Made by a program: the position numbers and the translations under genes. Below the pieces are notes generated by a model that saw nothing but the letters and a program-made list of their open reading frames with translations, was not told where the DNA came from and did no database searches. A DNA stretch of 64,000 nucleotides from Ignavibacteria bacterium (GTDB lineage Bacteria; Bacteroidota; Ignavibacteria; UBA10030; SZUA-254), in the NCBI GenBank assembly GCA_016178595.1, contig JACOSY010000034.1, forward strand, positions 62,001-126,000, given 5' to 3'. Each line of letters opens with the position of its first letter. Within the stretch, counting starts at the first letter, position 1. This document shows, piece after piece, positions 25,749 to 34,875 of this stretch.

Positions 25749-26765
25749 TCAGGAGAGACTCCTCCCCACCGCATTCGCCACTGCTTTCACCTCCATCACC
25801 AACTGTTGGAATACAGCCGGCGTGAGCGATTGATCGCCATCCGAGAATGCCTTCGCCGGATTGGGATGGACTTCCACAATCAATCCATCTGCACCGCAGG
25901 CAATGGCTGCGCGGCTCATCGGAAGAATGAGGTCGTGGCGTCCTGTGCCGTGACTCGGATCGACGATGATGGGAAGATGCGAGAGCTGCTTGACTGCTGG
26001 AACGATGTTCAGATCGAGCGTGTTGCGTGTGTATTCAACGAACGTTCGGATTCCCCTCTCGCAGAGAATCACCTGGTCGTTACCGCCGGAGAGAAGATAT
26101 TCTGCGCTCATGAGGAATTCATTGAGCGTGGCGGAGAAGTTGCGCTTGAGAAGGATCGGCTTCCTGATTTTTGACAGTGCACGGAGGAGCTTGGTGTTCT
26201 GCATGTTCCGTGCACCAACCTGTAACAAGTCGGCGTAGTCTGCAACAAGATCCACGTCCGGAGATTCCATCACCTCCGTCACGATTCCAAGTCCCGTCTT
26301 CTCTCGAGCCTTTGCCAGCAGTTTTAATCCATCTTCACCTAATCCCTGGAACGCGTACGGACTTGTTCGCGGCTTGTAGGCTCCTCCACGCAAAAGGAGT
26401 GCACCCGCGGCTTTCACTGCATCCGCTGTTATCATCAATTGTTCTTCCGTCTCGACGGAACACGGGCCTGCCATGACAACGACATTCTTCCCTCCCACCT
26501 TCACACCGGCAACGTCAATGATGGAGTCAGTCTGTTTGAAGTCCCGGCTGGCAAGCTTATAGGGTTTGAGGATGGGAATGACGTTCTCGACGTGCGGCAA
26601 GAGCGAAAGCTGATCCTTCTGGATGAGCCGTTCGTCGCCGATGACGCCGATGATCGTCCGCTCGACGCCTTGCGAGAGGTGAGGCGTGAGTCCGAGTTCC
26701 TTGATTCGACTGACAACGTGTTGAATATCTTCTTCACGTGCGTGGGCTTCCATGACAATGATCAT
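25749..26765 (-). CDS. aroF: 3-deoxy-7-phosphoheptulonate synthase (DAHP synthase), copy 1
   Basis: 338 residues. The N-terminal ~70 residues (M-I-I-V-M ... G-V-E-R-T-I-I-G-V-I-G-D) are the ferredoxin-like regulatory domain of type I-beta enzymes such as that of Thermotoga. The barrel has A-G-P-C-S-V-E-T, G-G-A-Y-K-P-R-T-S-P, V-G-A-R-N-M-Q-N, K-R and D-P-S-H-G-T-G-R. It condenses PEP and erythrose 4-phosphate, the first step of aromatic synthesis. The neighbouring 27024-28040 gene is a close paralogue; residues ~125-305 are nearly identical, while the N-terminal regulatory part and C-terminus differ more. This copy has a MITE-like element upstream and no attenuator of its own. Confidence 0.95.
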   Translation of the reverse strand: MIIVMEAHAREEDIQHVVSRIKELGLTPHLSQGVERTIIGVIGDERLIQKDQLSLLPHVENVIPILKPYKLASRDFKQTDSIIDVAGVKVGGKNVVVMAGPCSVETEEQLMITADAVKAAGALLLRGGAYKPRTSPYAFQGLGEDGLKLLAKAREKTGLGIVTEVMESPDVDLVADYADLLQVGARNMQNTKLLRALSKIRKPILLKRNFSATLNEFLMSAEYLLSGGNDQVILCERGIRTFVEYTRNTLDLNIVPAVKQLSHLPIIVDPSHGTGRHDLILPMSRAAIACGADGLIVEVHPNPAKAFSDGDQSLTPAVFQQLVMEVKAVANAVGRSLS

Positions 26766-28066: not shown

Positions 28067-28094
28067 GTAGGACAGGAGTCCTCTCCTGTCCTAC
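28067..28094. repeat. Short palindrome in the aroF copy 2 leader
   Basis: Perfect 12-bp arms GTAGGACAGGAG / CTCCTGTCCTAC with a 4-nt loop, between the attenuator terminator and the gene. It has no U-tract, so it is more like a REP hairpin than a terminator. Confidence 0.7.
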
Positions 28095-28168
28095 TAAGTG
28101 TCTAAAACGACAAGCGATGGACGCGTCAGGAGACCCGTCCTACCATCGATTCGCCGGGGGAAGAAAAC

Positions 28169-28200
28169 AAAAAACCCCGTCGATCACTCGGCGGGGTTCG
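28169..28200 (-). terminator. Attenuator terminator before aroF copy 2
   Basis: On the minus strand, GAACCCCG(C)CG ... CG(A)CGGGGTT forms a stem of about 11 pairs followed by six U (28169-28174). The 5' arm (GAACCCCGCC, 28190-28199) can alternatively pair with leader region 2 (GGCGCGUUC, 28237-28244), which would prevent termination. Confidence 0.87.
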
Positions 28201-28222
28201 TTCATTTCTTTATGGTCTTCGA

Positions 28223-28306
28223 TCAAGAATGCGATGAACGCGCCACAGCCGGGAGCCGGCCCTTAAAAAAGTAAAAGTAATAATATGGCGCGTTTCCTAA
28301 AATCAT
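28223..28306 (-). CDS. Tyr/Phe leader peptide of the aroF attenuator (27 codons)
   Basis: ATG at 28306, stop TGA at 28223-28225. The peptide begins M-I-L-G-N-A-P and then has Y-Y-Y-F-Y-F-F, seven aromatic codons in succession, before K-G-R. Region 1 of the RNA (AACGCGCCA, 28286-28294) directly precedes the aromatic codons and is perfectly complementary over 9 nt to region 2 (UGGCGCGUU, 28237-28245). A ribosome stalled at the Tyr/Phe codons would cover region 1, free region 2 to pair with the terminator's 5' arm and let transcription proceed. The ATG sits about 7 nt after the -10 box, so the mRNA may be leaderless. Confidence 0.88.
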   Translation of the reverse strand: MILGNAPYYYFYFFKGRLPAVARSSHS

Positions 28307-28312
28307 GGAGGT

Positions 28313-28341
28313 AGTATACGAAAGCGTCTTCACAAAGTCAA
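28313..28341 (-). promoter_or_regulatory. Promoter of the aroF attenuator transcript
   Basis: Minus-strand -35 TTGACT (28336-28341), a 17-bp spacer and -10 TATACT (28313-28318). The predicted start point, about 7 nt downstream, coincides with the A of the leader-peptide ATG at 28306. Confidence 0.85.
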
Positions 28342-33288: not shown

Positions 33289-34563
33289 TCAACGCACCCT
33301 CACCAAAAAATAATTCCTTCCGCCCTTCCTCAGCACGAGGAACTTGCCGTGGATGGTATCGTTCATCGTCACTTTGCGCGCCACGTCTCCGCAGCGGATG
33401 TTGTTGATGTAAATCCCTCCGCCTTCAATCGCGCGGCGGGCTTCACCTTTGGATTTTGCGACTCCAGCATGAATGACCAAATCCACCAGAGGTAATCCAT
33501 CACTCCTCAATTGATCCTTTGAGATTTGATTGGAAGGTACGTCGCTGAAAATATCGAGCAGCTCACTCTCGCTGACTCCAGTGATTTCACCGCCGAAGAA
33601 GATCTGCGATGCCTTCATTGTTTGGGCAAGTGCGCTTTCGCCATGGACAGTACGCGTTACTTCCTGCGCCAACACCTTTTGCGCCTCGCGCTTCTCAGGC
33701 GAAGTCTTCAGCGAATTCTCCAACTCATCAATCTTCTCTTTCGGAAGAAGCGTAAAAAACCTGAGGTACTTACTCACGTCGCGATCATCCGTATTAAACC
33801 AGTATTGGTAGAACTTGTACGGCGATGTCCGATTCGCATCGAGCCAAATCGTCCCGCTCTCTGTCTTGCCGAATTTTATGCCAGTCGATGTTGTGATGAG
33901 ATGAAACACAATCCCATGCGCTTCGACGCTGCGGAGCCGACGAATAAGATCGACTCCTGCGACGATATTGCCCCACTGGTCGCTGCCGCCCATCTGCAGC
34001 GTACACTTGTGGCGATCATAGAGTTCAAGGAAGTCGAACGCCTGGAGCAACGAGTAGCTGAACTCCGTAAACGACATCCCTTGTTCCTGCTCGATTCTAT
34101 TTTTCACGGAATCCCTGGCGAGCATTTCGTTCACGGAAAAATGCTTTCCGACATCGCGCAGGAATTCCATCATCGAAAGCTTCGTGAGCCAATCGGCATT
34201 GTTCACTAACTTTGCCGGATTCGTCTTCGCGTTGAAATCAAGGAACTGCGCGAGTTGTTTTTTTATCCCCTCAAGATTCGCTTCGATGTCTTCCTTGCTC
34301 AAAAGTTTTCGCTCTTGCACCTTTCCGCTTGGATCACCGATCATGCCGGTGCCGCCGCCGGCAATGGCGATGGGGATATGTCCGCCGCGCTGCAGATGCA
34401 CCAAACCCATGATCGGCAAGAGTGAGCCGACGTGGAGGCTCGACGCCGTCGGATCGAAGCCAACGTAACCCGCGACAGAATGCTTTGCGAGATGCTCTTC
34501 AACACCCTGCGTGTGTGAGTGAATGAATCCCCGCCACTGAAGTTCCTGAAAAAAATTTTGCAT
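33289..34563 (-). CDS. tyrS: Tyrosyl-tRNA synthetase
   Basis: 424 residues from ATG 34563, with AAAGGAA upstream; the extra 20 codons to 34623 are not family-like. Class I landmarks: Y-V-G-F-D-P-T-A-S-S-L-H-V-G (HIGH equivalent), the substrate pocket Q-M-G-G-S-D-Q-W-G-N, K-F-G-K-T (KMSKS equivalent), and a C-terminal S4 RNA-binding domain (residues ~360-424). It charges tRNA-Tyr, one of the two species that probably gate the aroF attenuator. Confidence 0.95.
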   Translation of the reverse strand: MQNFFQELQWRGFIHSHTQGVEEHLAKHSVAGYVGFDPTASSLHVGSLLPIMGLVHLQRGGHIPIAIAGGGTGMIGDPSGKVQERKLLSKEDIEANLEGIKKQLAQFLDFNAKTNPAKLVNNADWLTKLSMMEFLRDVGKHFSVNEMLARDSVKNRIEQEQGMSFTEFSYSLLQAFDFLELYDRHKCTLQMGGSDQWGNIVAGVDLIRRLRSVEAHGIVFHLITTSTGIKFGKTESGTIWLDANRTSPYKFYQYWFNTDDRDVSKYLRFFTLLPKEKIDELENSLKTSPEKREAQKVLAQEVTRTVHGESALAQTMKASQIFFGGEITGVSESELLDIFSDVPSNQISKDQLRSDGLPLVDLVIHAGVAKSKGEARRAIEGGGIYINNIRCGDVARKVTMNDTIHGKFLVLRKGGRNYFLVRVR

Positions 34564-34875
34564 TCGATTCCTTTGAGTGTTGTAACGATCAGATGTATCG
34601 CACTGTTTGGACTCAACCCCCACCCTACCCTCCCCCTTCTCTAAACTTAGAGAAGGGGGAGGGAATGGGCGGAGGATGAGTTCCGTAAGACACTACTGTT
34701 GCAAACAATCGTAGTCATTCTCGCATAACATCACAGACTAAGATCGGAGAACAAGTTACCACCTTATGGCTGAAAAATCAAGAAATGACAACGATCAATA
34801 ATCCAACAAAATAGTCTTGTATCTCTCTCCAAAATGTCTTATCTTTCCACTCGAAAAATTTGAGTGCCATAACCT
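34564..34875. repeat. Gene-free stretch with a 36-bp palindrome
   Basis: At 34628-34663 CCCTCCCCCTTCTCTAA and TTAGAGAAGGGGGAGGG pair, followed by GGAGGATGAGTTCCG and AAGACACTACTG, the latter similar to the MITE end at 44.9 kb. It is the same family as 9715-9741. The rest is the 5' region of the plus-strand membrane gene and of tyrS. Confidence 0.7.

Follow-up and report, generated by a model that had tools for sequence, protein, structure and literature searches.

Does the DNA in front of a DAHP synthase gene of an Ignavibacteriota MAG (genome of 3.1 Mb, placed in the phylum through its closest named relatives) form a transcription attenuator that responds to Tyr and Phe, as a preliminary description of the locus had proposed? 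The window, i.e. the whole stretch of 64,000 nucleotides that was analysed, carries on its minus strand an element (28341-28169) in which a promoter and a leader ORF are followed by an intrinsic terminator, with a 1:2 helix and an antiterminator as alternative pairings (Table 1). The TTGACT-17-TATACT promoter was located where it had been placed (28341-28313), as predicted from sequence, and the 27-codon leader with its seven consecutive Tyr/Phe codons likewise (YYYFYFF at codons 8-14). The G+C-rich terminator with six U was recovered at 28199-28169. Region 2 sits shortly before the leader stop codon, and 128 nt separate the terminator from the start of aroF1 (28040). This gap also contains an inverted repeat (GTAGGACAGGAG...CTCCTGTCCTAC, window 28067-28094), each arm of which is unique within the window; it may represent a dispersed element, or else an additional hairpin of the aroF leader.

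Table 1. Features of the leader element and its genes in the window, and the leaders of the Desulfobacterota branch
Feature	Position	Strand	Details
Sigma-70-type promoter TTGACT-17-TATACT (predicted)	28313..28341	-	TTGACT 28341-28336, 17-nt spacer, TATACT 28318-28313
Leader ORF MILGNAPYYYFYFFKGRLPAVARSSHS + TGA	28223..28306	-	ATG 28306-28304, 27 sense codons, TGA 28225-28223
Control codons Y-Y-Y-F-Y-F-F	28285-28265	-	Leader codons 8-14; from sequence
Region 1 AACGCGCCA	28286..28294	-	Abuts first Tyr codon on its upstream side
Region 2, 1:2-pairing part TGGCGCGTT	28245-28237	-	9 bp with region 1
Region 2, region-3-pairing part GGCGCGTTCAT	28244-28234	-	Whole region 2: 28234..28245
Region 3, AUGAACG	28205-28199	-	Partner CGUUCAU of region 2; constrained folding, stalled-ribosome state
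Region 3, CGCC	28193-28190	-	Inside terminator 5' arm; partner GGCG of region 2
Intrinsic terminator	28169..28199	-	G+C-rich hairpin (one C.A mismatch) followed by six U; stem about 28199-28172, six T 28174-28169
aroF1, type I-beta DAHP synthase, 338 aa	27024..28040	-	Above the NCBIfam cut-offs of PRK08673 and TIGR01361
aroF2, tandem type I-beta DAHP synthase	25749..26765	-	84% identical to aroF1
Desulfobacterota-branch leaders L055-L060, L064, L066, L068-L071, L075, L080, L090, L100, L101, L106, L111	about 190-370 bases before aroF

The product of aroF1 scored 508.7 bits against PRK08673 (cut-off 335) and 400.4 bits against TIGR01361 (cut-off 267.75). The gene had been counted as one of two DAHP synthase genes; the genome in fact holds three of type I-beta, two in tandem and a third copy on another contig (54% identity), and a fourth match is distant (32% identity) and of uncertain kind. 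Scanning of the upstream regions found no leader before aroF2 or the third type I-beta gene, and aroF2 is probably transcribed together with aroF1, under one attenuator. The tandem order is common to the relatives G003, G011 and G014. The second aroF copies of the relatives are 71-72% identical to the window aroF1, versus 84% between aroF1 and aroF2 of the window, a difference that may point to gene conversion, or to a duplication of its own, in the lineage of the window. A TyrS-like ORF occupies window positions 33289-34623, about 5 kb from the attenuator, and in G001 (L009) an ORF with a tyrosyl-tRNA-synthetase-like end lies directly upstream of aroF. Runs of His codons, taken as a sign of further attenuators in the genome, gave two matches, one within a long ORF and the other in a stretch of longer ORFs.

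How far the single sequence speaks for an attenuator depends on the part considered. The 3.1-Mb genome has two places with seven consecutive TAY/TTY codons, of which the second is a polypyrimidine tract, and it has two matches to the reversed pattern used as a control, so that the count of the pattern by itself says little; of the runs of seven in the genome, that of the window leader alone includes Tyr. The proposed 9-nt pairing of region 1 (28286-28294) with region 2 (28237-28245) was confirmed and exceeded shuffled sequences at p=0.04, one of five leaders out of eight with p=0.002-0.04, the other three giving 0.16-0.32. The antiterminator, measured as the contrast between the stalled and the stop-codon states, reached p<=0.08 in 5/8 leaders, and that of the window sequence alone did not rise above shuffles (p=0.43); the significance of the 2:3 and 3:4 pairings thus lies with the set of relatives. 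The case is carried by the Tyr codons within a short ORF and the remaining anatomy, and above all by conservation.

Conservation in the upstream regions of aroF orthologues had been set beforehand as the test, and the outcome was favourable, with seven elements in the same family and a second family of different sequence. The same architecture precedes the orthologous aroF in family relatives (leaders MNIGCFSYYYSYRFRFYTAEKRSFKF, MKFKRSFYYYFYFSAKPPRSVEERLS, MNFRRFYFYYFYFSPISPSPDLERRS, MIRCTSFYYFYFSTKPPRSVEERFS and MNSGRLSYPRFYYCPAGKTAEAHPL). Six same-family elements (the window, G004, two contigs of G011, G003 and G007) were aligned; each has a leader of 25-27 codons that includes Tyr/Phe codons, and each has both helix and terminator, the sequence being otherwise diverged. 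In the structure-blind MAFFT alignment of these six, TATACT is invariant, gaps within the ORF are multiples of three, the terminator and U run are kept in 6/6, and the leader peptide shows no conserved sequence apart from its aromatic run. RNAalifold returned from this alignment the 1:2 helix and the terminator, with both sides changed in five pairs, and the region 1 helix displays compensatory changes in four of its nine consensus pairs. The cells of the alignment pair in 88.8% of cases, vs 36-54% with the partner slid, and the covariation score was 0.251 vs 0.187 for shuffles, 8/500 of which scored as high. Coming from six related sequences, which are few, this covariation may be read as supportive and, taken alone, not as proof.

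A covariance model built from the six elements was run against 98 genomes of the order and produced seven strong matches, namely the six training elements and an untrained one upstream of aroF1 in G014 (114 bits, E 9e-20), and none of the strong matches in the 98 genomes stood before a gene other than aroF. The element is present in 5/14 same-family relatives (G003, G004, G007, G011, G014), and some of the other nine are incomplete assemblies. The G014 leader ends in MNYRYSFYYYFYFSPRLRPDEEYLYS. In this genome (L130 / L120) a 123-residue ORF, taken by inspection only for a glyoxalase/VOC-type protein, is situated between the attenuator and aroF1, a position that would place it under Tyr/Phe control. 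The second family of the order (G016, G021) has leaders MTTRTINYRYYYSNPVRRDAE and MITGTTYYDWYYANPLQRDSV, with Tyr and without Phe, and region 2 just past the leader stop codon; the covariance-model matches are weak (25-29 bits), at the correct place and strand. In another 40 upstream regions, almost all of them belonging to other DAHP synthase genes of the order, the scan applied brought up a single Tyr-rich leader with a terminator (G015). This lone leader, MTTENTKNSICHRYEYYSYYYYQFFGSQLGVYKFIF (L166), belongs to another family of the order and lies about 200 bases before a third-class aroF, with a strong terminator.

The arrangement of the pairing regions was followed by folding. Under constraint, region 3 of seven leaders was paired upstream with a ribosome on the control codons and free once the ribosome was placed on the stop codon, and the eighth (L010) gave the same contrast in the shuffle-comparison folding. 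In 8/8 leaders no more than about 15 nt lie between region 2 and the stop codon, and the 1:2 helix is placed where a ribosome stalled on the control codons would disrupt it. The pairing of region 2 with the terminator arm had been described as GGCG:CGCC together with GUUC:GAAC; the former stands, whereas the latter is not in the terminator 5' arm and forms part of a 7-bp helix, CGUUCAU:AUGAACG, just 5' of it. Both segments constitute the window antiterminator, and only GGCG:CGCC overlaps the terminator. At equilibrium the terminator wins in every folded state, so that the antiterminator would have to prevail kinetically, as it does in known attenuators. The parts, their conservation, covariation and geometry are established by sequence and comparison, and the classical attenuator logic that had been ascribed to the locus is supported by what is conserved, namely the leader with its control codons, the 1:2 helix, the terminator and the spacing of the promoter.

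Of note is the distance from TATACT to the ATG, which is 6 nt in six of the seven family elements and 9 nt in L037. The bases of this gap vary, and no Shine-Dalgarno-like sequence was found between TATACT and ATG in the family elements. A start about seven bases past the -10 hexamer would hit the A of the ATG (28306), from which we infer that the leader mRNA is probably leaderless, with +1 at or beside this base. Attenuator mRNAs of Corynebacterium glutamicum are reportedly leaderless, a statement ascribed to Neshat in 2014. The C. glutamicum ilvBNC leader has been discussed as leaderless (PMC11857589).

Taken together, the locus very probably represents a ribosome-mediated transcription attenuator before aroF1, sensing charged tRNA-Tyr (or tRNA-Phe). 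RNA polymerase would start at or next to the leader AUG. A shortage of charged tRNA-Tyr (or tRNA-Phe) would make the leading ribosome stall on the Tyr/Phe run and mask region 1, whereby region 2 could pair with region 3, the terminator would not form, and aroF1, probably also aroF2, would be transcribed. When both charged tRNAs are ample, the ribosome would proceed to the stop codon and mask region 2, thus allowing the 3:4 pairing, and transcription would cease at the U run. Termination would also be favoured, through the 1:2 helix, if the leader is not translated.

Other readings of the same parts were weighed. The strong, conserved terminator with its U run and the promoter nearby would suit a leader RNA that terminates constitutively, or one that is a small RNA made from a promoter of its own, in which the Tyr/Phe-rich ORF is not a sensor. 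Such an RNA would hardly retain a length of 25-27 codons, a Tyr/Phe run and in-frame length changes while the remainder diverges, nor the alternative pairings and their placement relative to the control and stop codons, and this explanation is considered very improbable. Marginally less probable still is a leader peptide that acts by another route, be it translational coupling to aroF, Rho-dependent polarity or a trans-acting peptide. Translation of the leader itself looks conserved, and trans-acting attenuator peptides are known (PMC7298713); the peptide sequence is, however, not conserved beyond the aromatic run, and coupling to aroF does not fit because of the 128-nt gap between terminator and aroF in the window and the entire ORF that intervenes in G014.

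A chance combination within an intergenic region has the lowest probability, close to negligible. The promoter-like and terminator-like matches of the region do each occur at chance frequency when taken alone, and they rise above chance because they are conserved; against coincidence stand the seven conserved family elements and the match to the untrained G014 at E 9e-20.

The enterobacterial pheA leader combines aromatic control codons, 1:2, 2:3 and 3:4 pairings and an intrinsic terminator, and controls pheA. The window element shares this logic of control codons, pairings and terminator, yet its run is led by Tyr and it controls aroF instead. Against the corresponding Rfam family, RF01859 (Phe_leader), the window element scored 17.8 bits vs a gathering score of 55, and the relatives gave no match at gathering; a search for any Rfam family for the window element found none that fits at gathering or relaxed thresholds. 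The nearest known case is aroR-aroF of Corynebacterium glutamicum, in which a Phe-Tyr-Phe leader precedes aroF and acts by attenuation (PMC4046766). Leader peptide with Phe/Tyr codons, DAHP synthase gene and transcription attenuation are common to both, although the phylum is another and the window run is longer and Tyr-led. Expression from the C. glutamicum leader is raised by Phe, not Tyr, limitation (PMC11802643, citing Neshat et al. 2014).

Attenuators have also been predicted for operons containing the same enzyme type, e.g. in Bacteroides thetaiotaomicron, Enterococcus faecalis and Thermus thermophilus (PMC1173090, Table 7), but these cases differ from the window element in being, in that table, entries of a putative-attenuator database, with no leader peptide or sensor given there. 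For Flavobacterium, amino acid operons have been suggested to be preceded by leader-peptide attenuators (PMC9723704), and a paper of 2010 that added a case in Firmicutes considered leader-peptide systems as shown only in Proteobacteria and Actinobacteria (PMC2965389). In the open-licence literature no report of a leader-peptide attenuator in Ignavibacteriota was found. The suggestion that the element may be new can thus be kept for this phylum, as far as found, the mechanism itself being textbook; it does not extend to DAHP synthase attenuators, already known in Corynebacterium (PMC4046766, PMC11802643), or to type I-beta operons, for which predictions exist (PMC1173090, Table 7).

A tree of 91 aroF proteins revealed a further group of such leaders. 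In one branch of 19 rows (Syntrophaceae, Smithellaceae and other MAGs filed as Deltaproteobacteria) a Tyr/Phe(/Trp) leader is found upstream in 19/19, while the Ignavibacteriota leaders belong to another branch of 23 rows, scattered among genes without a leader. The Desulfobacterota leaders resemble the window element in preceding type I-beta aroF relatives, in their Tyr/Phe(/Trp) run and in apparent 1:2, 2:3 and 3:4 pairings by inspection, and differ from it in the separate branch of the enzyme tree, the leader sequence and the promoter-like hexamers, which are further upstream. Most of them end in a VCPxLRR-like stretch, the DNA of which (e.g. GGTCTGCCCAT) looks on inspection pairable with the leader start and with the terminator arm (ATGGGTAGATC). 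Five loci of this branch were tried against Rfam and gave no match at gathering. Separate origins of the Ignavibacteriota and Desulfobacterota leaders are plausible. More tentatively, a leaderless Tyr-sensing attenuator may have arisen in Ignavibacteriota independently of both the actinobacterial aroR and the Desulfobacterota leaders, a proposal we hold at slightly less than even confidence.

The present work extends leader-peptide attenuation to Ignavibacteriota, a little-studied group, with good comparative support and provides diverged natural variants of a Tyr/Phe sensor. If the origin was indeed independent, the first enzyme of the shikimate pathway would have been put under the same type of control several times. 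Leaderless initiation, if true, would set the ribosome right behind RNA polymerase, and the near-fixed TATACT-6-ATG spacing offers a clean test case for such initiation being favoured in attenuators. DAHP synthase is the entry to aromatic amino acid synthesis, and the attenuator would therefore tell which signal this lineage follows, namely Tyr throughout and Phe in part.
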